A stretch of DNA of 64,000 nucleotides from Arthrobacter sp. B3I4 (GTDB taxonomy: Bacteria > Actinomycetota > Actinomycetes > Actinomycetales > Micrococcaceae), in contig NZ_JAUSYK010000001.1 in the NCBI RefSeq assembly GCF_030816855.1, positions 1,054,001-1,118,000 on the forward strand. The letters run 5' to 3'. The notes beneath the pieces were generated by a model that saw only the letters and a list, made by a program, of their open reading frames with translations, made no database searches and was not told where the DNA came from. Positions within the stretch are counted from its first letter, which is position 1. Every line of letters starts with the position of its first letter. The translations under genes and the position numbers were made by a program. Positions 48,984 to 64,000 of this stretch are shown here, one piece after another.

Positions 48984-51070
48984 GCAAGGTCGAGTCCCCG
49001 ACGGCGGGCGGCGGCCCGGGCGGCTCGCGCGGCGCGGGCGGGGCCCGCGGCGCGGGCGGGGCCGCAGCGGGCGGAGAGCCGCGCTCCGGTGCCGGCGCAC
49101 CCGGGGCTGCGCAGGAGGCCCCGCTGCGGATTCCCCGGCCGCGCGGCGGCCCCGGCCACGGCGGCCCGTTCGCCGGGATGAACGTCCCTGCCGAGAAGGC
49201 GATGAACTTCGGCCCGTCCGCGGAGCGGCTGCTCGGCGAACTCCGCCCCGAACGGCTCTGGCTGGCGCTGGTACTGGCCCTCGCCGTCGTGAGCGTGGCG
49301 CTTTCGGTGATCGGGCCGCGTCTGCTCGGTGAAGGGACCAACCTGATCTTCGCCGGCGTCGTGTCCAAACAGCTGCCCGCCGGGGTGAGCAAGGCGCAGC
49401 TGATCGCGCAGCTGCGGGCCGCGGGGGAGAACCAGAAAGCGGACATGCTCAGCGCCATGGCGCTCACGCCCGGCACCGGCATCGACTTCGCCGCGCTGTC
49501 CTCGGTGCTGCTGTGGGCGCTGGTGCTGTACGTGCTGGCGTCGGCGTTTATGTGGATGCAGGCATATATCCTCAACGGCGTGGTGCAGCGGACCGTGTAC
49601 CGGCTGCGCGAACGGATCGAGGCGAAGATCAACAGGCTGCCGCTGCGCTACTTCGACACCGTGCAGCGCGGCGAACTGCTCAGCCGGGTGACCAACGACG
49701 TTGACAACATCTCCCAGAGCCTGCAGCAGTCCATCAGCCAGGCGGTGACCTCGCTGCTGACCGTCGCCGGGGTGCTGGTGATGATGGTCATCCTGTCGCC
49801 GACGCTGGCGATCATCGCCCTGGTGACCATCCCGCTGACCCTGGTGACGACTGCGCTGATCGCCAAGCGCTCACAGAAACTGTTCGTGGCGCAATGGAAG
49901 AACACCGGCGAGCTGAACGGCCAGATCGAGGAGACCTACACCGGACACGCGCTGGTGAAGGTCTTCGGCCGGCAGCGCGAGGTGGAGGAAACATTCCGAA
50001 AGAAGAATGTGGAGCTGTACCAGGCCAGCTTCGGTGCGCAGTTCATTTCCGGGCTGATCATGCCGGCCATGACGTTCATCGGGAACCTGGTTTACGTGGG
50101 GATCGCTGTGGTGGGCGGGCTGCAGGTGGCGTCCGGGGCGATGCAGCTGGGCGATGTGCAGGCGTTCATCCAGTATTCGCGGCAGTTCACCCAGCCGCTG
50201 GCCCAGCTGGGCTCGATGGCGAACCTGCTGCAGTCCGGCGTGGCCTCGGCCGAGCGGGTGTTCGAGCTGCTGGACACTGAGGAGCAGTCGCCTGACCCGG
50301 TTCCGGCCGTGGCACCCGACGGCGGGCGGGGGCGGCTGGTGTTCGAGGACGTGTCCTTTGCCTACTCTCCGGACAAGCCGCTGATCTCTTCGCTGTCTCT
50401 GGTGGCGGAGCCGGGGCAGACCGTGGCGATCGTGGGGCCGACCGGGGCAGGCAAGACCACGCTGGTGAACCTGATGATGCGCTTCTACGAGCTCGATGCC
50501 GGGCGGATCACGTTGGACGGCGTGGATGTCGCGGCGATGTCCCGGCACGAGCTGCGGTCGCGGATGGGCATGGTGCTGCAGGACACCTGGCTGTTCGGCG
50601 GGACCATCCGGGACAACATCGCCTACGGCCGGCCGTCGGCCACGGAAGCGGAGATCCTGGAGGCGGCGAAGGCGACCTACGTGGACCGGTTCGTGAAGTC
50701 CCTGCCGCAGGGCTATGACACCGTGCTCGACGACGAAGGTTCCAATGTCTCGGCGGGGGAGAAGCAGCTGCTGACGATCGCCCGGGCATTCCTGGCCCGG
50801 CCGTCGGTGCTGATCCTGGACGAGGCTACATCGTCTGTGGATACCCGGACCGAGGTGCTGGTGCAGAAGGCGATGAGCGCGCTGCGGTCCGACCGCACCT
50901 CGTTCGTCATAGCCCACCGGCTTTCCACCATCCGCGACGCCGACCTCATCCTGGTGATGGAAGCCGGCCAGATCGTGGAGCAGGGGACTCACGCGTCATT
51001 GTTGGAGGCCGGTGGCGCGTACGCCGCGCTGTACGAGGCGCAGTTCGCGGCTCCCGTGGCGGAGGTCTAA
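48980..51070 (+). CDS. ABC exporter half-transporter, subunit 2 (consensus site)
   Basis: The 696-residue protein has a Gly/Ala/Arg-rich disordered N-terminus of about 70 residues and a six-helix domain. The loop between helices 1 and 2 is enlarged, at about 110-165. The NBD has Walker A GPTGAGKTT, signature NVSAGEKQLLTIARAF (degenerate SAGE for SGGQ) and normal Walker B VLILDEATSSVD. With its partner it forms one consensus and one degenerate ATP site. Substrate is probably a hydrophobic drug, peptide or lipid. Confidence 0.93.
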   Translation: MSKVESPTAGGGPGGSRGAGGARGAGGAAAGGEPRSGAGAPGAAQEAPLRIPRPRGGPGHGGPFAGMNVPAEKAMNFGPSAERLLGELRPERLWLALVLALAVVSVALSVIGPRLLGEGTNLIFAGVVSKQLPAGVSKAQLIAQLRAAGENQKADMLSAMALTPGTGIDFAALSSVLLWALVLYVLASAFMWMQAYILNGVVQRTVYRLRERIEAKINRLPLRYFDTVQRGELLSRVTNDVDNISQSLQQSISQAVTSLLTVAGVLVMMVILSPTLAIIALVTIPLTLVTTALIAKRSQKLFVAQWKNTGELNGQIEETYTGHALVKVFGRQREVEETFRKKNVELYQASFGAQFISGLIMPAMTFIGNLVYVGIAVVGGLQVASGAMQLGDVQAFIQYSRQFTQPLAQLGSMANLLQSGVASAERVFELLDTEEQSPDPVPAVAPDGGRGRLVFEDVSFAYSPDKPLISSLSLVAEPGQTVAIVGPTGAGKTTLVNLMMRFYELDAGRITLDGVDVAAMSRHELRSRMGMVLQDTWLFGGTIRDNIAYGRPSATEAEILEAAKATYVDRFVKSLPQGYDTVLDDEGSNVSAGEKQLLTIARAFLARPSVLILDEATSSVDTRTEVLVQKAMSALRSDRTSFVIAHRLSTIRDADLILVMEAGQIVEQGTHASLLEAGGAYAALYEAQFAAPVAEV

Positions 51071-51986: not shown

Positions 51987-53165
51987 TCAGCGAGTGAAGA
52001 GGCAGCGTCCTGCCGCGTACGTGGCGCTGATCTTCCAGTCGGAGTCGAATAAGGCAAGGTCGGCTTCGTATCCCGGTGACAGCAGCCCCAGGGTGTCCTG
52101 CAGGTTTAGCAGCCGGGCTGGAGCGAGAGTCAACGCTTCAACCACAGCATTCTGGCCAATGTTGTTGCTAATCCCCAGTCGCAGCGCGTTATCGAGCGTC
52201 AGCGTGGAACCGGCCAGTGTGCTTGTTCCCGCCAAGACCGCCCTGCCATCGCCAGCTTCGACGTGCAGTTCGCCGAGTAGATAGGATCCGTCCGGCGCGC
52301 CGGCAGCGGCCATGGCGTCGGAAACGAGCACCACCCGGCCGGCCGCAAGCCGGAACACCATGGCAGCTACTCGCGGATGGACATGGATGCCGTCCAGGAT
52401 GAGCTCCATATAGGCGTCCCGATCGAGGGCGGCGATGATGGGACCGGGTTCTCGGTGGTGGATCCCTGGCATGGCGTTGAACGCGTGAGTCAGCATCGTT
52501 GCGCCTGCCTCGAAAGCGGCGAGGGAAGTCTCGTAGCTCGCCTCCGTATGTCCGATGGCGACGCGCACCCCGGCCCGGGAGAACTCTCCGATCGCCTCGA
52601 AAGCTCCTGGCTGGTCCGGGTCAATCGTGACCTGCCGCAGTGTTCCACGGCCCGCCTCAATGAGCTGACCGATGTCGGTGTCCGCGGGAGCGACCAGATG
52701 CTGCGCGCTATGGGCTCCTCTCCGTTCCTTGGCAAGAAACGGCCCTTCCAGGTGACTGCCCAGAACCAAAGGCGATGTAGCGGCGAGCTCAGCGACCATT
52801 CTGAGGTTGGCCATGAGTTCGGGTACGGGGTTGGCCACAAAACTCACGACGGCGCGGGTGGTCCCATGGGTGTGGTGGGCTGCCAGCGCCGCCATGATGG
52901 CCTGCGGGCCCTGTTCGTTGCTGTACGTACCACCGCCGTGGAAGTGGACATCGATGAACCCGGGCGTGACATACCCGCCCCGGCCCTCCACCACGGCCGT
53001 CAAAGGAACAGCGGCGCTCTGCCACGAATCACCCTGTCCCAAGTCCTGGATTCGGCCAGCGGCCACGCTGATCCACGCGTTCTCAATGGTCTTGGTGGCG
53101 TCGACGGCTGTGACATCCCGGATTAAGAAGGATTTGTCGTCGATATGTGAAGGTCGGTCGTTCAT
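51987..53165 (-). CDS. nagA: N-acetylglucosamine-6-phosphate deacetylase
   Basis: The 392-residue amidohydrolase has VTPGFIDVHFHGGGT (metal His pair), LGSHLEGPFLA (Glu), AIGHTEASYE, LTHAFNAMPGIHHREPG and LVSDAMAAAG (catalytic Asp). It removes acetate from GlcNAc-6-P, giving GlcN-6-P for cell-wall synthesis or catabolism. It is the last gene of the predicted muropeptide-recycling operon. Its ATG overlaps the preceding MFS stop (TAATG). Confidence 0.94.
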   Translation of the reverse strand: MNDRPSHIDDKSFLIRDVTAVDATKTIENAWISVAAGRIQDLGQGDSWQSAAVPLTAVVEGRGGYVTPGFIDVHFHGGGTYSNEQGPQAIMAALAAHHTHGTTRAVVSFVANPVPELMANLRMVAELAATSPLVLGSHLEGPFLAKERRGAHSAQHLVAPADTDIGQLIEAGRGTLRQVTIDPDQPGAFEAIGEFSRAGVRVAIGHTEASYETSLAAFEAGATMLTHAFNAMPGIHHREPGPIIAALDRDAYMELILDGIHVHPRVAAMVFRLAAGRVVLVSDAMAAAGAPDGSYLLGELHVEAGDGRAVLAGTSTLAGSTLTLDNALRLGISNNIGQNAVVEALTLAPARLLNLQDTLGLLSPGYEADLALFDSDWKISATYAAGRCLFTR

Positions 53166-54434
53166 TAGTCTGCATTCTTCTCTGCCGAGGGCTCGGGCGG
53201 TGACTTTTTATGGACGGTCAGGGGCGCTATGAGTGCCGTCAGAAAGGCGGCCGTAACTAGGATCCGGGAGGCTCCCGGGCGCAAGGTGACCGAGAGGAGC
53301 ACGGCCGGAATGCCTGCCCCGCCTGCCGCCCCAATGGCGACCAGCAGCCCGACCGCCTTCTTTGCGTCGTAGATCTTGACCCGGGAGAGCCCAATGCCGA
53401 GAACTAGTGAGTACGTCGGGCCGAGGGACAAGATGGCAACGCCGGAGAAGACCATGGCCAACCCCGGGTTTACCTGCCTGACCAATCCCGCTGCGGCAAA
53501 GCACGCCACGGCCAGTGTGCACGCGACGGTAAGTAGCGCTGACGGAGTCACTGATGACTTGAGTATGCACCATGCCGCATACCGGCCGGCGGCCATCAAT
53601 ACCCAAAATACTGAAGTGCCTGCCGCCGCGGTGTGGGGGTCCAAAGCAAGAACATCCGTCGCGATGACCGCTGACCAGCCCGAGAATACTGTTTCGATGC
53701 CCACGTAGACGAAGAGGGCTGCCGCTACGGGAGCCAGCAGGACGAGCAGGGACTTTGCAGGGGACCCGGTGCGGGTTTCGGCGGCAAGGTTCTCGGGCTC
53801 AGTTTTTCCCGCCTTGGGCACCAGGCGGTGGAAGAGAACCGTGGCCACATGAATGAGCGCAATTGAAGCAAGCAAGGGAGCAGGGCTCGCACCGACTAAG
53901 CCTGAGACGATGAACAGCGGCCCGGCGGCCCCGACGAAGGCAACTGTCCCGGTGAGGGCTGACAAAAGTCTGGCTGTCCCGGCGCGCGGCAAAGACACGA
54001 GCCAGCACACTTCCACTGGCTTCGCATAACCCGAATCCAACGCCGGCGACCATCGCCGACATTGCGAAGGCAGGCCCGTCTGGTGCAAGCGGGAGTGCAA
54101 CGAGAGCAGCAGCTTGAAGTGCCGATCCAGTGCTAAGGACGGCTGACGGCGACATTGCCCGCAGCAGAATTGCGGAGAGCAGCACGCCCGCCATCAGGCC
54201 GAAGAAGAGCGCAGGAACAACACCAAGGTAGTCCGCTGTGGAGGCGTGGACGTTATGGGCGCTAAGGGGAATGCTCGCTGGGATTACGGAAGCCGTACCG
54301 CCCATGCCGGCGAAAGCGGTGAACAGCCCCACCTTTGCAGTCCGCTGTAGCGGTACCTCTGAGGCCGGGTTCAGTCGATTCGGACTCGGGAGGGACGCCC
54401 GAAGGGCGTCATCTCCAACGTTACGGTGGGCCAC
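53165..54434 (-). pseudogene. MFS transporter with single frameshift, in the recycling operon
   Basis: The N-terminal frame covers residues around TAKVGLFTAFAGMGGTASVIP to CEASGSVLARVFAA, five or six helices. Near 53983 (GC-rich GCGCGCCGGG on the minus strand) the frame shifts, and the remaining helices (GTARLLSALTGTVAFVGAAG to VHKKSPPEPSAEKNAD) continue in the next frame to 53165. The total length is 3n+1, so one base is inserted. The start is uncertain: GTG 54434 is chosen as the first plausible start after the upstream ABC stop at 54454. It is probably a sugar or muropeptide permease by context. A sequencing indel must be excluded before calling it dead. Confidence 0.75.
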
Positions 54435-54453
54435 TACGGTAGCGCTTTTGCGT

Positions 54454-56103
54454 TCATGCGCCCGTCTTGGCGGCAGGAATAGCTGCGAGGAGTTCCCGGG
54501 TGTAATCCGCGACGGGGCGGTCGAAGATGTCTGAGGGGCTGCCGCTTTCAATGATTTTGCCGCGCTGCATGACGTGTACCGTGTGGGAGATCATGCGGAC
54601 GACGGCGAGGTCGTGACTGATGAAGAGGTAACTGACGTTTAGCTCTTTCTGGAGCTCCGCCAGCAGGTCCAGCGTCTGGGCTTGAACGAGAACATCGAGG
54701 GCGGAGACGGCCTCATCGAGTACGACAAGTTCGGGAGAGAGCGCTAACGCGCGGGCGATCGCGACACGCTGCCGCTGACCGCCGGAGAGCTCATGGGGCA
54801 GACGCTCAGCAAGGTCTGCAGGCAGGGCGACCTGGTCCAGCAGCTCAAGGCACCTTCTTCGGCGTGCGTCCTTCGTTCCGATGCGGTGCACCCGTAGGGG
54901 CTCAATAATCGATTCGGCGACGGTGTAGCGGGGGTCAAGGGACGCATACGGGTTCTGGAAGACCGGTTGGATCCGGCGGCGGAATGCGAAGAGCTCCCGT
55001 CTGCTCAGGGTTGCGATGTTGGTCCCGGCAAAAAGTATCTGCCCGGTGCTGATCTCCTCCAAGCCGAGCATGAGATTTGCAGTTGTCGATTTGCCGGATC
55101 CTGATTCCCCGACAATTGAGACGGTCTTGCCCCGCGGGATGCTGAAGCTGATGTCGTCGACCGCCGTGAACGTCGTGCCCGCCTTTCCGCTGGATCCACG
55201 GATGGTGAAGGTTTTGCTTAGGTTGCGGACATCCACGATGGTGTCCTCGGCTTCGCCTGGTGGCCGCTGGGCGGTGCTGGCCGGGGTTTCCATGACGAGG
55301 GTTCGGGAGGTCAGGCTTGGCGCGGCCTGCAGAAGGCGTCGAGTGTAATCATCCTGGGGGTTGTTGAGGATGGTGGTTGCGGGGCCGGACTCGACGATCT
55401 GCCCCTGACGCATGACGACGATGGAGTCTGCGCGTTCGGCCGCCAGTGCAAGGTCGTGGGTGATGAGCAACACGGCGGTGTCCATTTGGGCCGTCAGTTC
55501 TTCAAGCCGGTCTAGGATTCGTCTCTGCACTGTCACGTCAAGTGCTGATGTCGGCTCATCGGCAATCAGGAGTCGTGGCCGGCACGCCAGCCCGATTGCA
55601 ATGAGCACACGCTGGCGCATCCCGCCGGAGAATTCATGGGGGTATTGGCTGAGTCTGCGTTCGGGGTCCGGGATGCCGACCATTTTGAGGAGCTCGATGA
55701 CTTCCTCCTGCCCGGTGGCGCCCAAGGGGCGGCCGTGGACTTCCAGCGCTTCCGCGATCTGATCTCCGATGCGCATGAGCGGGTTCAGATTGGACATCGG
55801 ATCCTGGGGCACGAACCCGATTTTGGCGCCGCGGATTGTCATCATTTCCCGGTTGGATGCGTCCGCTAGGTTCGAGCCGTCGAAGTAGATCTCGCCTCCG
55901 GTTATCTGGCCGTTGGAGGGTAGCAGCCGGTTGATGGCCGCTGCGGTCGTGGACTTTCCCGACCCGGATTCACCAACAACGGCCACAGTTTGTCCGGGGA
56001 AGACGTCGAGGGAGACGCCGCGGACAACCGTCACGGGCCGGGCCGTGGTGCCGAATGCGATTGAAAGATTCTTTATGGAAAGGACTGGGGAAGGGGCAGA
56101 CAT
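54454..56103 (-). CDS. Fused double ATPase of an oligopeptide-type ABC importer
   Basis: The 549-residue protein contains two complete nucleotide-binding domains in tandem (DppD-DppF-like). The first has GESGSGKST, FSGGMRQRVLIAIGL and LLIADEPTSALD. The second, from about residue 290, has GESGSGKST, LSGGQRQRVAIARAL and LVVLDEAVSALD. This suits the two-permease importer encoded upstream. GAGAGAGGAA precedes the ATG at 56103. Confidence 0.93.
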   Translation of the reverse strand: MSAPSPVLSIKNLSIAFGTTARPVTVVRGVSLDVFPGQTVAVVGESGSGKSTTAAAINRLLPSNGQITGGEIYFDGSNLADASNREMMTIRGAKIGFVPQDPMSNLNPLMRIGDQIAEALEVHGRPLGATGQEEVIELLKMVGIPDPERRLSQYPHEFSGGMRQRVLIAIGLACRPRLLIADEPTSALDVTVQRRILDRLEELTAQMDTAVLLITHDLALAAERADSIVVMRQGQIVESGPATTILNNPQDDYTRRLLQAAPSLTSRTLVMETPASTAQRPPGEAEDTIVDVRNLSKTFTIRGSSGKAGTTFTAVDDISFSIPRGKTVSIVGESGSGKSTTANLMLGLEEISTGQILFAGTNIATLSRRELFAFRRRIQPVFQNPYASLDPRYTVAESIIEPLRVHRIGTKDARRRRCLELLDQVALPADLAERLPHELSGGQRQRVAIARALALSPELVVLDEAVSALDVLVQAQTLDLLAELQKELNVSYLFISHDLAVVRMISHTVHVMQRGKIIESGSPSDIFDRPVADYTRELLAAIPAAKTGA

Positions 56104-56168
56104 AGTCTGTTCCTCTCTCTTGCTGGGCTGCAGGTAGCTGCGGTCGGAGTTGAAGGCTGGGCGGGCTT

Positions 56169-57314
56169 TCATCGACATCGGCGCTCAATCTCTTCGCCTG
56201 CCGCTTGGAGGAGCTCCGCCCACAACACGTCCGTCGGGACGGGTGTTTCATTCACGAGGAGGCGGTTGCTCCCGAGGGCGAGGGCAATTTCTCGTCCAGG
56301 GACAAAACCGACGGCGCATCCGACGTACCCCGGATGGCCGAGCACCGTGTATGTCTTGTCGGCGACCCGCATCTGGTATCGGCGGAATCCCAGCGACTGC
56401 CCAGCGTCGGGTCCCGGCGCAAAGAACTCGGCGACGACGGAGGGGTGCCACAATTCTTCGTGGTCCTCGAAGGCCGCCAACGCGGCACCGAAACGGAGAA
56501 GATCCGGAACAGTGGAGAACAATCCTGCGTGACCGGAGACTCCGCCGAACGCGTGGTAAGCATTGCCATCAGCCACCTCGCCGTGGACCGGTCGGACCCG
56601 CCAGCCTGCGAAGTCGGTGCTGTGGAACGGAACCTCATAGGGAACTTGGGAATCGATCATGGTCGCTTCGATCCGGTCGTCTCGGGCGCCGGTCGCGACA
56701 TTGGGCCCGGCCGGCCGGGCGTAGCGCGTCGAGGTGAGTTGGAGCGGGCGGTGGATGAGTTCCTCAGCAGCTGAGGCGAGGTCTAGACCCGTGGCGCTGG
56801 CCACAATGCGGCCAAGAAGAATGAATCCCAGGTCGGAGTAATGGCGGGCAGACCCCGGGGTGAACCCTAGCGGGAGGGTTTCGACCAGCCGGTGCGCTTC
56901 TTCCGGCTCGGTGGTAGCCAAGTACAGCGGGTACCACTCTTTCAGGCCGCCCCGGTGAAGGAGCAGGTCCCGCACCGTAACAGCCTCCCGGGCGCCGTCG
57001 GAGAACCCAGAGAGGTAGAGCCGGACAGGGTCCTCGAGGCCGACGAGTCCGTCGGACACCAGCCGCATCAGACAGGCGGTTGTCGCCAGGACCTTGGTGA
57101 CTGAGGCCATGTCGTGTTGGGTTTCCACCGTCATGGGATCAACTCCGACCCGCTCGCCGTCAATCCACCGGGCTGTGCGGTAGCCTGCGGAAGCTGTGGT
57201 GGAAAAGCGCGCGCACTGGACTCCGAGGGTGACCCCGGCAGGAGGCTGCGTGCCCGGAGGCGTCCCCGGCGTCGGCGAGACCATGCGGCGTGCGACGTGC
57301 ATCATGTCCGTCAT
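56169..57314 (-). CDS. Beta-lactamase-family serine hydrolase (AmpH/YbbE-like)
   Basis: The 381-residue class C-type hydrolase has MASVTKVLATTACLMRLVSDG (SxxK), the HYSDLGFILLGRIV Tyr motif and LGHPGYVGCAVGF in place of KTG. No signal peptide is seen, so it may be cytoplasmic. In Bacillus a similar protein (YbbE) sits in the MurNAc locus, so a D,D-peptidase or esterase step in muropeptide breakdown is plausible. Its start overlaps the GNAT stop by four bases. Confidence 0.87.
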   Translation of the reverse strand: MTDMMHVARRMVSPTPGTPPGTQPPAGVTLGVQCARFSTTASAGYRTARWIDGERVGVDPMTVETQHDMASVTKVLATTACLMRLVSDGLVGLEDPVRLYLSGFSDGAREAVTVRDLLLHRGGLKEWYPLYLATTEPEEAHRLVETLPLGFTPGSARHYSDLGFILLGRIVASATGLDLASAAEELIHRPLQLTSTRYARPAGPNVATGARDDRIEATMIDSQVPYEVPFHSTDFAGWRVRPVHGEVADGNAYHAFGGVSGHAGLFSTVPDLLRFGAALAAFEDHEELWHPSVVAEFFAPGPDAGQSLGFRRYQMRVADKTYTVLGHPGYVGCAVGFVPGREIALALGSNRLLVNETPVPTDVLWAELLQAAGEEIERRCR

Positions 57315-57874
57315 GGCGTAGGTCCGGCGTTAGCCCCGGAAACGGCTGCTCCCGGCCTGCCCGTGGAGGAGAGCGCGTTTGTCATTGTCAATACCGGTTC
57401 GCCGAACTCATAACGTGTCTCGCCGTCCTGGTGCGCGGCCTTCCAGCCGTGATGACCGTAGAAGGCGATGGACGGCGCGTTCCGCGCGAACACACATAGG
57501 CTCGCCGAGTTTGCTCCTTTCGCCGCCAAAGCCTCCTCCGCTGTTCGGAGGAGGAGGGCGCCAAACCCGGCGCCCTGGGCGGGTGGGTCGACGTACAGCG
57601 ACCAGATGATCCCCTGACCGTCGCTGCCCCTGAGCCCGTACCGTACGACGGCGCAGGCAGCGCTTCCCTCGCCACGGCTCGCAACGAGGATCTCGTCCGG
57701 CTCCGTCCGGTCGGCAAAGGCCTTACTCCACAGCTGGACGGCGCGTTCGTCGGTCATCTGCCGTATGGCGCCCGAGGGGAGGACCTGCGCGTAGGGGCCG
57801 CGCCAGCATGCCAGGAAGACTCGGACGATGGCTTCCATGTCGGCGGCTGTTGCCGGGCGCAGGGTGAGGGTCAT
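57311..57874 (-). CDS. GNAT-family N-acetyltransferase
   Basis: The 187-residue protein has LRPATAADMEAIVRVFLACWRGPYAQVLP and the acetyl-CoA loop GIIWSLYVDPPAQGAGFGALLLRTAEEALAAKG, then ARNAPSIAFYGHHGWK. The acceptor is unknown; the operon suggests an amino sugar, peptide or a toxic amine. It starts 13 bp after the anmK stop and overlaps the serine hydrolase. Confidence 0.88.
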   Translation of the reverse strand: MTLTLRPATAADMEAIVRVFLACWRGPYAQVLPSGAIRQMTDERAVQLWSKAFADRTEPDEILVASRGEGSAACAVVRYGLRGSDGQGIIWSLYVDPPAQGAGFGALLLRTAEEALAAKGANSASLCVFARNAPSIAFYGHHGWKAAHQDGETRYEFGEPVLTMTNALSSTGRPGAAVSGANAGPTP

Positions 57875-57887
57875 GGTGACTTTCGAT

Positions 57888-59054
57888 TCAGGAGCGCACG
57901 AGCGTGAGTGCCCGCGGCGAGGTCCGTTTGGGTGCCGGAAGGTTCAACGGCCCCTTGCCGGGAGTGATCGTGCCAAGAATGCGGCTTTCCCGTGCCCCTG
58001 TTCCGGCCGGTACCGTCCCGGGCAGACCGTGCGCGGTGCACCACCCGATGAGGGCGAAGGCAATTGCTTCCTTGTCATCCGCCGGAGCACCGTAGTCGTC
58101 GGACAGTTTGATTGCCACATCTGGTAGCGCTCGCCGCAGCCCGTTCATCAGAAACTGGTTGCGGCATCCCCCGCCGGAAGCGACAAGGAGGTCGACCCCG
58201 TGGTTCCTAACTTCTCTGGCGACCGTTTGGACCGTCAGCTCGGTCAGCGTGGCAACCAGATCGGCGTCGCTGGGAGTGCGCCCCGTCGTTCGGAGCATTT
58301 CTTGTACGTAAGCGAGATGAAAGTGCTCCTTCCCGGTGGACTTGGGAATGGGCAGGTCAAAGTACTCGTCGGCCATCAGCGCTTTGAGGAGGACACCGTC
58401 GACGGCGCCCGTTGCGGCGATCTGTCCGTCGGCGTCGTAGCCGTCGGGATGGAGCTTGCGGTCAACAATGACGGCATCGATAAGGGCGTTGGCCGGCCCG
58501 ATGTCGTAGGCAAGGAGGTCCGAGCTTCCGAAGACGACGGTCATGTTGGCGATGCCGCCCAGGTTGAGAGCCGCCGCTGTCCCGTCGTGGCCGGCGAGCA
58601 GGAGACCGTCCAGGTAGGAGACCAATGGGGCGCCGTGACCACCGGCGGTGATGTCCCGGATCCGGACGTCGGAGAGCACCGGGGCGCCGGTAGTTTCCGC
58701 GATCCAGGCGGGCTGGCCGATCTGAAGTGTCCCGCGGGCCCGTCCTCCCTCCACCCAGTGGAAGACGGTCTGCCCGTGGGATACGACCAGGTCGACGGGG
58801 CCCGTACCGCTCAGGATGTCGGCGGCGGCCTGCGCGAAGCTTTGTCCCACGATCGTGTCGAGTTCACAAACCTCCGCGAGTGTGGTGGCCGCAGGAAGAG
58901 CCCGGAGAAGCCGTGCCCTAAGGGACGGCGGATAGGGTGTGCTGGCGGTTTTGAGCACCGTGCCGGTGAGGTTCCCGTCCTGCTCGCTGAATTCCACGAC
59001 GGCGGCATCGATCCCGTCGTGCGAGGTTCCTGAAATCATGCCCAAGATTTTCAC
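57888..59054 (-). CDS. anmK: Anhydro-N-acetylmuramic acid kinase
   Basis: The 388-residue kinase starts MKILGMISGTSHDGIDAAVV (phosphate-binding GTSxDG), continues VVSHGQTVFHWVEGG, NLGGIANMTVVF, DIGPANALIDAVI and LVASGGGCRNQFLM, all diagnostic of AnmK. It opens the 1,6-anhydro ring of anhMurNAc and phosphorylates it to MurNAc-6-P. It overlaps murQ by four bases. Confidence 0.95.
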   Translation of the reverse strand: MKILGMISGTSHDGIDAAVVEFSEQDGNLTGTVLKTASTPYPPSLRARLLRALPAATTLAEVCELDTIVGQSFAQAAADILSGTGPVDLVVSHGQTVFHWVEGGRARGTLQIGQPAWIAETTGAPVLSDVRIRDITAGGHGAPLVSYLDGLLLAGHDGTAAALNLGGIANMTVVFGSSDLLAYDIGPANALIDAVIVDRKLHPDGYDADGQIAATGAVDGVLLKALMADEYFDLPIPKSTGKEHFHLAYVQEMLRTTGRTPSDADLVATLTELTVQTVAREVRNHGVDLLVASGGGCRNQFLMNGLRRALPDVAIKLSDDYGAPADDKEAIAFALIGWCTAHGLPGTVPAGTGARESRILGTITPGKGPLNLPAPKRTSPRALTLVRS

Positions 59055-59974
59055 GCGTGCTCCCCAAGGGCGGCACGAAGCCGTCCGTCGTTGTCTTTGA
59101 TTTGAGCAGCCGCGTCCTCCGGGCCGAGATTCAGCCGGATGGCGACAATGGCGCGCTTAACCGACTGGCTGTTCGCGTCCAGGGCCTCGGCTGCTGTGGT
59201 TCTCTCGGCTCCCGTGACGGTTTGGATCATCCTCAGGGCCCGTTCGCGCAACTTGGCATTGGTGGGCTTCACGTCGACCATGAGATTTCCGTAAGTCTTG
59301 CCCAACTGGACCATCACAATGGTTGAAAACATGTTCAACACAAGTTTTTGGGCTGTGCCAGCCTTCAGCCGGGTGGAGCCCGCCACTACCTCCGGACCAA
59401 CGAGGACCTCGATCCGGTGTTCCGCTGCGGCCGCCAGCGGCGTACCCGCATTGCAGGTCAAAGCAATGGTGAGGGCTCCGTTGGCACGGGCACGCTCCAG
59501 AGCAGCGACGACGTATGGGGTCCGGCCACTGGACGCGATGCCGATGACGGTGTCAAGCCGCCCTACCCCGGCCGCGTCCATCGCGGCCGTACCGGCCTGC
59601 GTGTCGTCCTCCGCGCCTTCGCTTGGCGAAACGATCGCGCTCGGACCACCGGCGATGACCGCGAACACCTGTTCCGGGGGAGTGCCGAACGTTGGAGGAC
59701 ATTCGGATGCATCGAGGACCCCGATCCGCCCCGGTGTCCCTGCACCGACGTAGATCATTCGCCCTCCTGCCTTCATGCGGGACACAGCAGCCTCAATCGC
59801 GGGCGATATCTGGGGGAGGGCCCGCCTGACAGCATCCGGCACGGAAGCGTCCGCGGTGTTCATGGTGGCGGCGAGCTCGCCAACGGACATCTTGTCGATG
59901 TCGGCGAAACGTGAATCGGTGCCCTCAGTGTCGAGACGGGTGAGTCGGGCAATCTCCGTTGGATTCAGAGTCAT
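59051..59974 (-). CDS. murQ: N-acetylmuramic acid 6-phosphate etherase
   Basis: The 307-residue SIS-domain enzyme has IYVGAGTPGRIGVLDASECPPTFGTPPEQV and SPSEGAEDDTQAG, holding the two catalytic Glu positions, then GIASSGRTPYV and a C-terminal helical domain. It cleaves D-lactate from MurNAc-6-P, giving GlcNAc-6-P. Pro replaces the usual Ser in GAGTSGRLG. The ATG overlaps the permease stop (ATGA) and fixes the start. Confidence 0.95.
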   Translation of the reverse strand: MTLNPTEIARLTRLDTEGTDSRFADIDKMSVGELAATMNTADASVPDAVRRALPQISPAIEAAVSRMKAGGRMIYVGAGTPGRIGVLDASECPPTFGTPPEQVFAVIAGGPSAIVSPSEGAEDDTQAGTAAMDAAGVGRLDTVIGIASSGRTPYVVAALERARANGALTIALTCNAGTPLAAAAEHRIEVLVGPEVVAGSTRLKAGTAQKLVLNMFSTIVMVQLGKTYGNLMVDVKPTNAKLRERALRMIQTVTGAERTTAAEALDANSQSVKRAIVAIRLNLGPEDAAAQIKDNDGRLRAALGEHA

Positions 59975-60858
59975 CGGTCGCCTCGTTTCCGGGGGTCCAG
60001 GCTGTCGCGCAGCCCGTCGCCGAGCAAGTTCAAGCCGACGACGAGGAGAACGACAACCGCACCGGGGGCAACCATGGTCCAAGGCGCCGCGTAAACGAGG
60101 GTGCGGGCTTCGAAGATCATGGAACCCAGCGACGGTGCCGGCGGGGGAGTACCCAGCCCGAGGAAGCTCAGGGACGCCTCGGTCAGGACCGCCCATGAAA
60201 GGGACAGCGCAACCTGCACCACAATGATCGACGTGATGTTAGGCAGGACATGGCGCAGCATAATCATCAGACGGCTCTGACCCGTGCTGGTCGCGGCCCT
60301 GACGTACTCCACCTCCCGCAGGGACAGCACGGGGCCGCGAGTGACGCGAACGAAGATCGGCACGTAGACGATGGCGATGGCCACGGCGATGGTGAACCAA
60401 TTGCGGTCGAACACAGAGGCCAACGCGAGGGCCAGAAGCAGAGGCGGGAAAGCGAAGAGGACGTTCGTTATGCCACCGATCACGCCGTCCGGTACGCCAC
60501 GATAAAAGCCGGCGAAGAGCCCGCCCATGGTACCAATGACGGTTGCGAAGGCAACGGCGGTCACGGCGATGACGGCCGAGTTGGACACCCCGGCGGCGAC
60601 GCGTGCAAAGACGTCGCGTCCGAACTGGTCGGTACCGAACCAGTGCGTCGCCGATGGCGGGAGCAACCTGGAGGGGGCATTCTGGGCGATCGCGTCGTAA
60701 GGAAGGGCGTGGGAAAGAGACAAGGCCGAAAGAAGTACGAGAAGTCCGATGATGATCAGGCCTGTCAAACCGGTAGGACTCTTCCACAGCCCCGCACCCA
60801 GGCGCGCCGGCCTCGGCAAAACAGCTTGCGCCTCAGCGACCACGGCGTTCTCGCTCAT
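59971..60858 (-). CDS. ABC importer permease (DppC/OppC-like)
   Basis: The 295-residue permease has six helices and the family segments HWFGTDQFGRDVFARVAAG and EYVRAATSTGQSRLMIMLRHVLPN (EAA loop). PWTMVAPGAVVVLLVVGLNLLGDGLRD follows. It forms the heterodimeric channel with the upstream permease. The ATG overlaps the upstream permease stop by four bases. Confidence 0.94.
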   Translation of the reverse strand: MSENAVVAEAQAVLPRPARLGAGLWKSPTGLTGLIIIGLLVLLSALSLSHALPYDAIAQNAPSRLLPPSATHWFGTDQFGRDVFARVAAGVSNSAVIAVTAVAFATVIGTMGGLFAGFYRGVPDGVIGGITNVLFAFPPLLLALALASVFDRNWFTIAVAIAIVYVPIFVRVTRGPVLSLREVEYVRAATSTGQSRLMIMLRHVLPNITSIIVVQVALSLSWAVLTEASLSFLGLGTPPPAPSLGSMIFEARTLVYAAPWTMVAPGAVVVLLVVGLNLLGDGLRDSLDPRKRGDR

Positions 60859-61826
60859 GAGGCACGCACCCGGGGATCAATGACCCTGTAAAGCAGGTCG
60901 GTAAGCAGATTGACGATGACAAAACTCAAGGCAATAACCAAGACGGTGCTCTGCACGAGGGCATATTCCTTCTGCTGGATTCCCAGCAACACCTGACGCC
61001 CGATTCCTGGGATGGAAAAAATTTGCTCAACCACCACCGCTCCGCCGAGCAGGTAGCCGAACTGAAGCCCGGTCATGGTGGTTATCGGGACCAAAGAGTT
61101 TCGCAGGACGTGCCTGAACTGCAGCCGCCTTTCCGGAACCCCCTTCGCGCGGGCGGTGCGAATGAAGTCGTTGGAGCGGATCTCAAGCACCGCAGTGCGG
61201 GTGGTCCTGATGATGGGTGCCGCAATTCCGAAACCAAGGACGACGGACGGCAGCAGCATCTGCTGCAGGTTCAGCAGCGGGTCCGCTGTCAGGGCAGCGA
61301 AGCCTCGGCCGTTGGGATTGAAGCCGTACGACGCTGCGAAGACTGACAAGAGGGTCGTGGCCAGCAGGAACGCCGGGATGGAAAGCCCGGCCAAGCTAAC
61401 CGCCTGCGACACCGCGTCACGCGGAGAATCCGGCCGGGAGGCCCCGAGCATACCGAGGGGAACTCCAATGACCAACGCAAGGATGATGGCGAGAACTGCT
61501 AGTTCGAAGGTCACCGGCAGAGACCGCACCGTGAGGTCAAAAACGCTCTGTTGCGACCGGGACGAGAATCCCAGATTCCCCGTAAAGAGGTTTCCGAGCC
61601 AGGAGAAGAACTGGACGAAGAGGGGCTGGTCAAGACCGTAATACCGTTCCAGTGCAGCCTGCTGGGAGGGCGTCAGGGCAGCGGCCTCGGTGCCCAGGCC
61701 GGCCGTTATCTGGTCCCCAGGAATGGCCCGGAGCATGATGAAAACGAAGATCGCCACACCCAGCAGAGTGCCGGCGGCGCCGCCGACGCGGCGAAGAACG
61801 GGATTGTGAATGAGTCTCTGAAGCAT
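60855..61826 (-). CDS. ABC importer permease (DppB/OppB-like)
   Basis: The 323-residue permease has six helices and the DppB pattern VAIFVFIMLRAIPGDQI, the PLFVQFFSWLGNLFTGNLGFS loop, EIRSNDFIRTARAKGVPERRLQFRHVLRNSLVPI, and FSIPGIGRQVLLGIQQKEYALVQ. It pairs with the DppC-like permease. Confidence 0.94.
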   Translation of the reverse strand: MLQRLIHNPVLRRVGGAAGTLLGVAIFVFIMLRAIPGDQITAGLGTEAAALTPSQQAALERYYGLDQPLFVQFFSWLGNLFTGNLGFSSRSQQSVFDLTVRSLPVTFELAVLAIILALVIGVPLGMLGASRPDSPRDAVSQAVSLAGLSIPAFLLATTLLSVFAASYGFNPNGRGFAALTADPLLNLQQMLLPSVVLGFGIAAPIIRTTRTAVLEIRSNDFIRTARAKGVPERRLQFRHVLRNSLVPITTMTGLQFGYLLGGAVVVEQIFSIPGIGRQVLLGIQQKEYALVQSTVLVIALSFVIVNLLTDLLYRVIDPRVRAS

Positions 61827-61847
61827 GTGCCTGGTTTTCTCGCCAGT

Positions 61848-61879
61848 CAGCGGGGCCCTGGCGGACCAGGCCCCCGCTG
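61848..61879 (-). other. Intercistronic hairpin after the binding-protein gene
   Basis: A 14-bp stem with one mismatch and a CGGA loop (arms 61848-61861 and 61866-61879) occupies the 60-bp gap between the binding-protein stop (61887) and the permease start (61826). Such stems often raise the level of binding protein over permease mRNA. Confidence 0.65.
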
Positions 61880-61886
61880 GCGCGGG

Positions 61887-63449
61887 TTAGTTGATGGTCG
61901 TGGTCCGCAGGAACTGCAGGGAGCCGTTGGCCATCGGAACGAAGCCTTGGACGGAGGATGTGGTGGTGGTGTACGTGTAGCTCGTGAACAGCCAGACCCA
62001 GGCAGCATTGTTCTCAAGCTCCTTGGAAACCTTGGCGTAGATGTCCTTCCGCTTCTGCGGGTCGGTGCTCGCTTTACCTTCGGCGAAGAGGGCGTCAAGG
62101 GCTGGGGAACTGTAGCCCGCCACCTTGTTGAGGTTGCCGGTGCTGGTGAAGTAGCGCCCGTACATGCCATCCGGATCCGGGCGGCCGCCGTTGAGGGCCA
62201 CCGCTGCGTCAAAGTCGCCAGCCTTCCACCGGGTAACGAAAGCGCCTGACTCCAGCACTTCCACGTTGAGGGTGATCTTCGCTTCGGCGAGCTGGGACTT
62301 CAGATTCTGGGCCTCGTCCACTGAAGTGGCGTACTCGCCCTGGGAGACGATGGTTGAGAGCGTCACGCCGTCTTTCTTGCCAGCCTTGCTGAGGTAGTCA
62401 GCGGCCTTGGAGAGATCCCGTTTAGCGCAAGGGCGGTCGTCCGCGTTGGACTTGAACGCCGGGGAGGTGATCGGTCCGGTGACTTCGCCCTCGCCGAGGG
62501 CGGCGGTATCGAGCACCTGCTGCCGGTCCACGGCGCACTGGATGGCCAAGCGGACGTTGACGTCCTGCAGGTCCCCCCGTCGGGCGTTCAGCTGCAGGGC
62601 GTGGTAGCTGAGTTGAGGCGTCTTAGCGACGGACATGTTGGGCCCCGCAGCAGTTTTAGCCACCAAAGGGCTGTTGAACACGGCGAAATTCACGTTGCCG
62701 GACTGCATCGCCGAAACGATGGAGTTTTCATCAGGAATGACGCGCATCTCCACGGTGTCGAGCTTGGCCTTGTCTCCCCAGTAGGAATCGTTACGGGCAA
62801 GCTTCAGCGACTGACTCGCGACCCGGTCCTTCAAAGCGAACGGGCCAGTACCGTTGGGAGCCTTCATAAGGGACTGCTCCGCGTCGTCCGAGGACAGAAT
62901 CGCCATATTCACGACGGCGAGATTGGATGGCAGGGCAGCGTCCGGAGCGGACAGTCGCAGGACAACAGTGGCGGGGTCCGGGGCCTCCACTGCCGTCACG
63001 GCTGCCAGGGATGTACGGGCGACAGCACCTGTAGCTTCCTCTCTGATCTTGTCCAGGGAGAACTTGACGTCCTTGGAGTCGAAGGCACTGCCGTCGCTGA
63101 ACTTGACGCCCTCCCGGAGCTTAAACGTCAGGGTTTTTCCGGCATCCGACGCCTCCCAGGACTTCGCCAGGCCGGGAACGACCGCCAAATCCTTATCGAA
63201 CTCTGTCAGCGTTCCATAGATGTTCTGCAGAACAGAGACCGCCTGGAACTGGGTGGCTTTCCAGGGAAGGAGGGTGTCCGGATCGGTGGTGATCCCTACG
63301 ACCAGGTTTCCGCCGGAGTTTCCGGCCTTGCCGGCCGTCGCACCCGTTGGGGCGGACTGGGCGCCGCAGCCAGTAATGGTGACGGACACTGCTGCGGCTA
63401 TTGCGAATGCCGAAAGCGTGCCACGGATGAATCGGGAACCGCTGTGCAT
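61887..63449 (-). CDS. ABC importer substrate-binding lipoprotein (SBP_bac_5)
   Basis: The 520-residue protein has a signal peptide ending at the lipobox SVTITGC and then the family-5 solute-binding fold (GGNLVVGITTDPDTLLPWKA, GLAKSWEASDAGKTLTFKLREGVKFSDG, IQCAVDRQQVL). It captures peptides or peptide-like ligands; a muropeptide ligand is inferred from the operon. GGAG precedes the ATG. Confidence 0.93.
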   Translation of the reverse strand: MHSGSRFIRGTLSAFAIAAAVSVTITGCGAQSAPTGATAGKAGNSGGNLVVGITTDPDTLLPWKATQFQAVSVLQNIYGTLTEFDKDLAVVPGLAKSWEASDAGKTLTFKLREGVKFSDGSAFDSKDVKFSLDKIREEATGAVARTSLAAVTAVEAPDPATVVLRLSAPDAALPSNLAVVNMAILSSDDAEQSLMKAPNGTGPFALKDRVASQSLKLARNDSYWGDKAKLDTVEMRVIPDENSIVSAMQSGNVNFAVFNSPLVAKTAAGPNMSVAKTPQLSYHALQLNARRGDLQDVNVRLAIQCAVDRQQVLDTAALGEGEVTGPITSPAFKSNADDRPCAKRDLSKAADYLSKAGKKDGVTLSTIVSQGEYATSVDEAQNLKSQLAEAKITLNVEVLESGAFVTRWKAGDFDAAVALNGGRPDPDGMYGRYFTSTGNLNKVAGYSSPALDALFAEGKASTDPQKRKDIYAKVSKELENNAAWVWLFTSYTYTTTTSSVQGFVPMANGSLQFLRTTTIN

Positions 63450-63544
63450 GGTTTGGTCTCCTCAGTGACAAGTGATGCCTCCTGCCATGCCGCACCGGCT
63501 GTTGCAGGTCCCCCAGAGAGCATCGATGATCCGGGTTGGTCATT

Positions 63545-63574
63545 AACTTACCCATGTGACCTGAATCATGTAAA
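63545..63574 (-). promoter_or_regulatory. Promoter of the recycling operon
   Basis: On the minus strand TTTACA (63569-63574) and TAAGTT (63545-63550) are 18 bases apart, close to a standard promoter. An imperfect inverted repeat (TTACCCATG...CATGTAA, 63548-63573) overlaps it and could be the MurR-type operator. Confidence 0.55.
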
Positions 63575-63651
63575 GATATTCCGCAGAAGAGTTTTGCGAC
63601 GTCGGTCCCTTGAAGACTGACGTCCGATGAACATGTTGAAGAGGGAGCAGA

Positions 63652-64000
63652 ATGGCGAAGAGCGCAGTAAATGCCGCGGACTCTGAAGCGGTGCTGATTC
63701 GCATTCGCGCAGCTTTGCCCTCGCTGCGGCCGTCTGAAAGACGTATCGCTCAGGTGTTCGTGGACAGTCCGTCGGAGGGCGCCACCCTGTCGGTGGCCGA
63801 ACTTGCCGACCGTTGTGAAACGTCCACCACATCGGTGGTGCGTTTCTATAAACGAATGGGGTACTCCCACTACAAGGACCTTCTGATGGACCTCACACGG
63901 GAGGCCATGCGTCAAGAAATGACCACTTCGAGCCTCCCGCCGGTTTCCGGAGACATTGGGCGCAACGATTCTCTCGACGTCATTGTGGCCAAAGTGGCCA
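63652..64000 (+). CDS. MurR/RpiR-family regulator, partial at window end
   Basis: The first 116 residues are visible. After MAKSAVNAADSEAVLIRIRA there is LPSLRPSERRIAQVFVDSPSEGATLSVAELADRCETSTTSVVRFYKRMGYSHYKDLLMDL, a typical RpiR-type helix-turn-helix. A C-terminal SIS sugar-phosphate sensing domain should follow beyond the window. GAGGGAG precedes the ATG. Divergence from the operon suggests it senses MurNAc-6-P or a related phosphosugar. Confidence 0.9.
   Translation, partial: MAKSAVNAADSEAVLIRIRAALPSLRPSERRIAQVFVDSPSEGATLSVAELADRCETSTTSVVRFYKRMGYSHYKDLLMDLTREAMRQEMTTSSLPPVSGDIGRNDSLDVIVAKVA

Follow-up and report, generated by a model that had tools for sequence, protein, structure and literature searches.

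A candidate uptake-and-catabolism operon for (anhydro)muropeptides in Arthrobacter, with a peptide-type ABC importer linked to AnmK

The described system nearest to the operon analyzed here comes from an alphaproteobacterium, Agrobacterium tumefaciens, in which YejBEF-YepA, a Dpp/Opp-type ATP-binding cassette (ABC) importer, relies on a binding protein of its own and has AnmK, the kinase for anhydro-N-acetylmuramic acid (anhMurNAc), downstream (PMC9790009, in the part of the text available). The same ingredients occur together at one end of a 64,000-nt stretch of the genome of Arthrobacter sp. B3I4, a soil-type actinobacterium (G000:C1:1054001-1118000, from a genome of 3,609,760 bp in one contig), which we refer to as the window; there, an operon on the minus strand joins a peptide-type ABC importer to AnmK, to the MurNAc-6-phosphate etherase MurQ, and to the N-acetylglucosamine (GlcNAc)-6-phosphate deacetylase NagA. 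The Agrobacterium system differs in being Gram-negative, in having its binding protein coded apart, and in using the amidase AmpD and the MupP/AmgK/MurU route, as described in the same part of that paper. By analogy, the Arthrobacter operon may work like YejBEF-YepA together with AmpD, which would make that system its nearest working analogue. The AmpG-AmpD-AnmK recycling pathway of E. coli shares the AnmK chemistry but depends on AmpG for uptake. E. coli MppA and B. subtilis DppE are parts of general peptide importers. Unlike the sugar-bearing ligand proposed below, what they bind is free murein tripeptide (PDB 3o9p, 8ay0).

Other known MurNAc loci share the catabolic genes and differ in how substrate enters; for all three that follow, the comparison extends to the available part of one paper (PMC5061867). 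The B. subtilis cluster murQ-murR-murP-amiE-nagZ-ybbC has MurQ, a MurR-type regulator, and an amidase, but it imports through the phosphotransferase system (PTS) permease MurP, its AmiE and NagZ are extracellular, and AnmK is not among the six genes named. The E. coli divergon murR / murQ-murP-yfeW likewise has a divergent MurR-type regulator, MurQ, and an adjoining PBP4B, with uptake through the PTS and no anmK among the three operon genes named. Streptomyces coelicolor SCO4305-4308 provides an actinobacterial murQ with a MurR-like regulator and no MurP, but no importer or AnmK is named there, and the other two genes are given as of unknown function. According to a 2019 review, AmpG is apparently absent in Gram-positives (PMC6448482, in the part available). 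We propose, with a probability of roughly 0.7, that the Arthrobacter operon would be a dedicated unit for the uptake and catabolism of (anhydro)muropeptides, comprising an ABC importer, cytosolic removal of the stem peptide, and the enzymes AnmK, MurQ, NagA, and NagB.

Gene families, gene order, conservation, and shared reading frames can be taken directly from the sequence. The first gene of the operon encodes a family-5 solute-binding lipoprotein (SBP, 61887..63449; PF00496, 288 bits; lipobox ...TGC by eye) and is followed by genes for a DppB-type permease (PermB, 60855..61826; PF00528, 135.9 bits, and PF19300) and a DppC-type permease (PermC, 59971..60858; PF00528, 96.7 bits), which overlap by 4 bp. 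MurQ (59051..59974) scores 351.4 against a TIGR00274 cut-off of 302 and matches the PDB MurQ 4lzj (E 3e-79). AnmK (57888..59054, GTG start) exceeds the NF007146 cut-off (537.8 over 440), matches 13 further AnmK models below their cut-offs, and has an Asp, D184, that is invariant across a 12-row alignment. Next come an N-acetyltransferase (GNAT, 57311..57874; PF00583, 49.5 bits), a serine hydrolase of the class-C beta-lactamase fold that is our candidate cytosolic MurNAc-L-Ala amidase (SerH, 56169..57314; PF00144, 158 bits), and the two-domain importer ATPase (ABCF, 54454..56178; PF00005, 218.3 bits in two stretches, plus oligo_HPY). NagA (51987..53165; TIGR00221, 237.2 over 225.65) is encoded at the far end of the operon, and nagB lies outside the window (L003:1628-2440; TIGR00502, 249.3 over 236.9), so that MurQ, AnmK, NagA, and NagB all exceed NCBIfam equivalog cut-offs. 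An earlier note, made from the window's sequence, had listed this gene set and called the ABC importer, AnmK, MurQ, and NagA, and Pfam and NCBIfam cut-offs bear these calls out; its assignment of the binding protein to the peptide family agrees with the PF00496 score.

The importer itself falls between the named families. SBP, PermB, and PermC score below the cut-off of every NCBIfam model that they match, 24 families in the case of the permeases: SBP reaches 195.8 of 393 for NikA and 116.9 of 1005 for DppA, and the Opp2B model gives 291.6 of 350, placing neither the binding protein nor the permeases in the Nik, Opp, or Dpp groups. Nor does the importer reach the YejABEF cut-offs (YejF NF011713, 514.7 of 834; YejB NF011712, 113.3 of 445). 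ABCF passes the cut-offs for NikD, NikE, CntD, CntF, and the dipeptide subfamily NF008453 simultaneously, and hence does not discriminate among them. Of 8000 scored candidates, 1797 count as SBP homologues at E<=0.001, the best 120 being listed. The AlphaFold2 model of SBP (predicted local distance difference test score, pLDDT, 86.7) has a cluster-C fold that matches NikZ, DppA, and AapF equally; the fold is undiagnostic for the ligand because it is common to peptide, nickel, opine, and sialic acid binders. One position sets these binding proteins apart from some solved relatives: a Gly is invariant in the importer SBPs where two of five aligned solved relatives carry Asp. An NGG motif at residues 420-422 of SBP is likewise invariant.

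To measure the association of importer and AnmK, we used SBP as the sole query, with counts that include the own genome. In the phylum sample, SBP found matches in 10 of 396 genomes at E<=1e-60, only two of them (the own genome and G263) more than 40% identical; the other eight were 30-34% identical, and in one of these genomes, G348, AnmK lies some 1.3 Mb distant. At E<=1e-110, the search found 19 of 394 genomes in the class sample and 17 of 396 in the order sample, a union of 31 genomes. We examined the loci of the 30 genomes in this union other than our own, together with that of G263 (L064, L174-L203). AnmK, PermB, and PermC adjoin SBP at all 31 loci located by SBP alone (by tblastn), and these loci span ten families besides that of Arthrobacter. 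The earlier note had proposed a search of related genomes as a check; the gene set recurs in them more than chance would allow, and the link with AnmK favors the note's reading of a salvage route. These results indicate that the importer is very probably dedicated to the AnmK pathway.

Adding one locus found through AnmK, in a second Arthrobacter genome (G043), gave a set of 32 loci, in which we scored gene presence by tblastn (E<=1e-4, with 25% or more of the query covered). ABCF is present in 31, the exception being a locus that stops at a contig end (L193); SerH is found in 30, the MurR-type regulator in 24, MurQ in 22, GNAT in 15, the major facilitator superfamily (MFS)-like gene in six, and NagA and NagB in three each. 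MurQ is absent from ten of these stretches, and nine of those ten genomes carry a copy elsewhere, in G826 only 5 kb from SBP on the same contig.

We also asked the converse question, scanning contigs with an AnmK alignment and taking the best 80 of 588 confirmed loci as a sample of close AnmKs, to which all of the following counts refer; a locus was called importer-positive when it encoded a PermB with 40% identity or more across 60% of its length. SerH is present at 13/16 importer-linked loci vs 1/64 others (p 2e-11) and GNAT at 8/16 vs 0/64 (p 4e-7). The MFS-like gene and a gene of dipeptide epimerase type each occur at 4/16 vs 0/64 (p 0.001 for both), NagA at 5/16 vs 1/64 (p 0.001), and MurQ at 10/16 vs 13/64 (p 0.002), with smaller differences for the regulator (8/16 vs 15/64, p 0.06) and NagB (1/16 vs 1/64, p 0.36); the p-values serve as a guide only, the rows being related. 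What SerH, GNAT, and the epimerase-type gene follow is thus this importer, not AnmK generally. Three importer-less AnmK loci that we inspected carry transporters of other kinds: an SBP_bac_1-type ABC system, an SSF symporter, a GH3 gene, and a BadF-type kinase in L129; an SSF symporter and a BadF-type kinase in L094; and an MFS sugar porter in L128. Actinobacterial AnmK loci may therefore exist in two forms, one sugar-importing and peptide-free, the other peptide-importing.

SerH bears on whether the substrate enters with its stem peptide. Its residues S71, K74, Y159, S160, D161, H327, and G329 are invariant in 29 sequences, its AlphaFold2 model has a pLDDT of 93.1, and its top NCBIfam model is PBP4B (NF002968), at 109.4 well below the cut-off of 385. 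By eye, no signal peptide is visible at the N-terminus of the window's SerH. In several relatives, SerH shares an open frame with its neighbors: AnmK, GNAT, and SerH run together in two loci of one genus (L064:8651-11908, 1085 aa; L193:5490-8699, a 1070-aa frame), GNAT and SerH in two loci of a second genus (L082, which is the L179 contig, and L180) and two of another (L194 and L196), and AnmK and GNAT in L124. Apparent shared frames of PermB and PermC are cross-matches between the two permeases and were disregarded. GNAT domains are also found on 4 of the 120 SerH homologues listed. Because SerH shares a frame with AnmK, an ATP-using and hence cytosolic kinase, it is most likely cytosolic, differing from AmiE of B. 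subtilis, which is extracellular (PMC5061867, in the part available). A MurNAc-L-Ala amidase is our favored assignment for SerH, by a modest margin over an even chance.

A further sign of the stem comes from relatives. In L199, an enolase-superfamily gene sits between AnmK and SerH, and its best solved relative is the B. subtilis L-Ala-D/L-Glu epimerase 1jpm (E 1.4e-67); the gene likely encodes such an epimerase. Genes of this type were found by tblastn in 10 of the 32 clusters, plus L083, L084, and L152; five of the ten are 42-100% identical to the query, itself included, and the other five, all from family f113, are 30-36% identical. Four of the ten were checked by Pfam scans (three as stop-extended frames), and the other six are tblastn matches. 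The substrate of dipeptide epimerases is L-Ala-D-Glu derived from murein stems; in the epimerase-bearing relatives, it therefore appears that the stem peptide gets into the cytosol. The suggestion in the earlier note that muropeptides are taken up with the stem attached thus gains three supports of unequal weight: a SerH with no visible signal peptide and a frame shared with AnmK, the epimerase-type gene, and the change from Asp to Gly in SBP. We consider uptake with the stem attached probable, at about three chances in four, and hold it less firmly than the link with AnmK.

Elsewhere in the genome there are candidates for the steps before and around import. Two PTS permeases were found with PF02378, one mannitol-type (NF011663, 777.7 over 589) and one fructose-type (TIGR01427, 328.8 over 157.55), and none resembling MurP or NagE, in keeping with the earlier statement that no MurP is present. 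There are two Rpf-type genes (PF06737) and a single GH3 gene (PF00933), whose product has a signal sequence and lipobox by eye and is read as a secreted lipoprotein.

In the pathway that we infer from these genes, the ligand, the bond cut by SerH, the direction of flow, the role of GNAT, and the regulation are all proposed, as is each step of chemistry and transport. Wall enzymes such as Rpf-type transglycosylases would release GlcNAc-anhMurNAc-peptides, from which the secreted GH3 lipoprotein, the only GH3 found in the genome, would remove GlcNAc outside the cell. The binding lipoprotein, with its Dpp-type ABC importer, would then take in anhMurNAc-peptide, and perhaps MurNAc-peptide, with the stem attached. 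In the cytosol, SerH would cut the lactyl-L-Ala bond, as AmpD does in E. coli; AnmK would yield MurNAc-6-phosphate, MurQ would convert it to GlcNAc-6-phosphate, and NagA and NagB would lead to fructose-6-phosphate. The freed peptide would be degraded, in some relatives perhaps via the epimerase coded in the cluster, and the MurR-type regulator would control both arms. We give even odds to a broader claim: that these genes represent a Gram-positive family of dedicated anhydromuropeptide importers, encoded with AnmK wherever we found them at more than 40% identity and delivering whole MurNAc-peptides to a cytosolic amidase of the serine-hydrolase kind that replaces AmpD, with kinase, acetyltransferase, and amidase fused in some lineages. 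If this broader claim holds, GNAT would act in the same series of steps, for example in re-acetylating muramic sugars from N-deacetylated walls.

A number of observations weigh against this proposal. AnmK mostly occurs without the importer, which is present at 16 and absent at 64 of the best 80 AnmK loci; of the 17 phylum-sample genomes (of 396) with AnmK at E<=1e-30, only two, our own and G263, have an SBP more than 40% identical. In one genome, G1068, MurQ is absent although the importer and AnmK are there, and only two of the nine MurQs encoded elsewhere pass the TIGR00274 cut-off. The top NCBIfam models for SBP and the permeases, all below cut-off, are nickel and Opp types, and the models that ABCF passes include NikD, NikE, CntD, and CntF. 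The change from Asp to Gly is not unique, a relative lacking Asp at that position in three of five alignments. GNAT is detected in only 15 of 32 loci, and SerH is undetected in two; the SerH fold is common to esterases, D-amino acid amidases, and DL-peptidases, so the bond that it would cut is a guess. AnmK is nearly as similar to levoglucosan kinase as to solved AnmKs, and the GH3 protein is below the NagZ cut-off (142.9 of 207). As for the epimerase, half of the ten matches are only 30-36% identical to the query, the four scanned genes fall short of the specific NCBIfam epimerase cut-offs (the L199 copy at 163.9 of 500 for NF041118 and 118.5 of 343 for NF011708), and no such gene lies in the cluster of the window, the best match elsewhere in the genome being 35% identical.

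The alternative that survives best differs from our proposal only at the SerH step: muropeptides would enter, SerH would be a cytosolic DL- or DD-peptidase that trims the stem, and the amidase would lie elsewhere. The breadth of the SerH fold would accommodate this, but the frames shared with AnmK and GNAT suggest a step adjacent to the sugar. SerH also shares its fold family with AmiE of B. subtilis, an amidase encoded next to murQ, which again argues for an amidase. We rate the peptidase assignment as unlikely, at something like one chance in five.

Slightly less likely still is an importer for free MurNAc or anhMurNAc without peptide, with SerH acting on some other substrate, perhaps as an esterase or on residual peptides. 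All of the sugar steps are present for such a route, SerH is undetected in 2 of 32 loci, and sugar-type transporters stand at three of the 64 importer-less AnmK loci, the three that we inspected; because L129, L094, and L128 carry such transporters, AnmK alone does not imply peptide uptake. Yet this is a peptide-type importer, which SerH, GNAT, and the epimerase-type gene accompany while hardly occurring at other AnmK loci, and uptake of sugars alone would leave a dipeptide epimerase without a function.

An ordinary peptide or nickel/metallophore importer that stands beside MurNAc genes by chance is very improbable. The nickel and Opp models are the best for SBP and the permeases, ABCF is over the NikD and NikE cut-offs, and the SBP fold fits NikZ, DppA, and AapF alike, but SBP and the permeases miss every NCBIfam cut-off that they were matched to. 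As the principal explanation, an ordinary Dpp/Nik importer is rejected on the AnmK link at 31/31 loci across ten further families. Least probable of all is a kinase for levoglucosan or another anhydrosugar in an operon for growth on burnt plant material: levoglucosan kinase 4zxz (E 2e-54) matches AnmK almost as well as the solved AnmK 3cqy (E 5.8e-56), but the NF007146 cut-off is passed and, with MurQ, NagA, NagB, and a MurR-type regulator at the same locus and no etherase or deacetylase required for levoglucosan, the idea is rejected by the neighboring genes, not by the kinase sequence.

Operon neighbors overlap by 1-10 bp at six of nine junctions, with gaps of 60 bp between SBP and PermB and 13 bp between AnmK and GNAT; the ninth junction is the one in front of the split MFS gene. 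The MFS gene listed in the earlier note is present (53165..54551, minus strand) but split over two frames in the window (53799-54551 and 53165-54100). Its counterpart in G043 is a single 426-aa frame (L063:13845-15125) that scores 26.5, below the Pfam MFS_1 cut-off of 33.4; the split may be either a true break or a sequencing error, which one assembly cannot distinguish. Genes of this MFS-like family recur, by tblastn, near clusters L063, L083, L084, L087, L174, L175, L178, L181, and L200, and the five copies that were scanned (L063, L083, L084, L087, L181) all stay below the MFS_1 cut-off.

Divergent from the operon, an RpiR/MurR-type regulator gene starts on the plus strand at 63652 and extends beyond the window end (63652..64000; whole gene L003:653-1555), with nagB directly behind it. 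The MurR-like regulator of the earlier note was right as to architecture, an RpiR-type HTH_6 plus SIS protein, but the MurR model NF012026 is missed (124.8 of 408) and the top NCBIfam model, NF008458, gives 166.8 against a cut-off of 378. The intergenic control region between SBP and the regulator (63450..63651) was read as sequence: a scan of 63300-63800 for a sigma-70-like promoter or terminator gave nothing usable, a simple search of 18 intergenic stretches gave no common operator, and an Rfam scan of L002 gave nothing usable.

The nine genes compared between the window and G043 are all constrained, SBP and PermB most: the ratio of nonsynonymous to synonymous substitution rates (dN/dS) is 0.030 for SBP, 0.027 for PermB, 0.061 for PermC, 0.093 for MurQ, 0.086 for AnmK, 0.348 for GNAT, 0.164 for SerH, 0.111 for ABCF, and 0.157 for NagA. 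The G043 cluster is 85.2% identical to that of the window across 13,470 bp. Within the genus, strong AnmK matches (E<1e-60) occur in 6 of 91 genomes, our own included, in a relatives sample of 149 genomes, and MurQ matches above 250 bits occur in 31 of 91 (counted from the rows listed). Among the five other AnmK genomes of the genus, only G043 has this cluster; in the remaining four, which lack this importer, AnmK lies close to MurQ and NagB and in part also to NagA or a MurR-type gene. Two equal-scoring, inverted AnmK matches on a 3.2-kb contig, G120:C480 (L006, L066), are probably an assembly artefact.

In a tree of 122 AnmKs, 44 of them importer-linked, the importer label needs 9 changes compared with 36.2 in shuffles (0/500 as low, by a quick method); the main importer clade has 48 rows, 9 of them without the importer. 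Duplicate contigs (L079, L082, L086, L101) and L183, with its AnmK match broken in two, were left out. The two window-type AnmKs group with Psychromicrobium and families f105 and f107 (support 94, with the inner order unresolved) and are separate from the AnmKs of the four other genomes in the genus. The operon has probably spread horizontally. Direct repeats flank the cluster, formed by the 3' end of an ABC exporter gene (50439..51069, plus strand, with a copy beyond nagB at L003:2452-3081; 631 bp, 88% identical), and G043 has remnants of the same exporter beside its nagA. Because of this repeat and these remnants, we suggest that the cluster travels with the exporter-gene piece and may have entered by recombination with a resident copy. 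Behind nagB, outside the window, L003:3259-6482 holds a phage-defense set that adjoins the cluster: a type II restriction enzyme match by PADLOC, a D12 adenine methyltransferase (also matched as PD-Lambda-5_B), and a protein matching PD-Lambda-5_A along its full length.

In the open-licence literature, we recognized no description of this operon, consistent with the earlier remark that for this group such a route has seldom been described. In a 2026 preprint, the mycobacterial MurNAc transporter is still called unknown (PMC13041923, in the part available). This gene set supplies a specific, testable candidate for the importer and another, with the beta-lactamase fold, for the amidase. The importer would fill a role that in Gram-negative bacteria has been ascribed to another importer, and related sets occur in other actinobacteria. 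The reported product of RpfB is a GlcNAc-1,6-anhydroMurNAc peptide (PMC6572805, in the part available), which makes an anhydro substrate plausible in actinobacteria and means that the importer would bear on how they handle proposed resuscitation signals. If the broader claim made above is true, the operon could provide a route for taking up and switching off Rpf-made 1,6-anhydromuropeptides, the proposed wake-up signals in actinobacteria.

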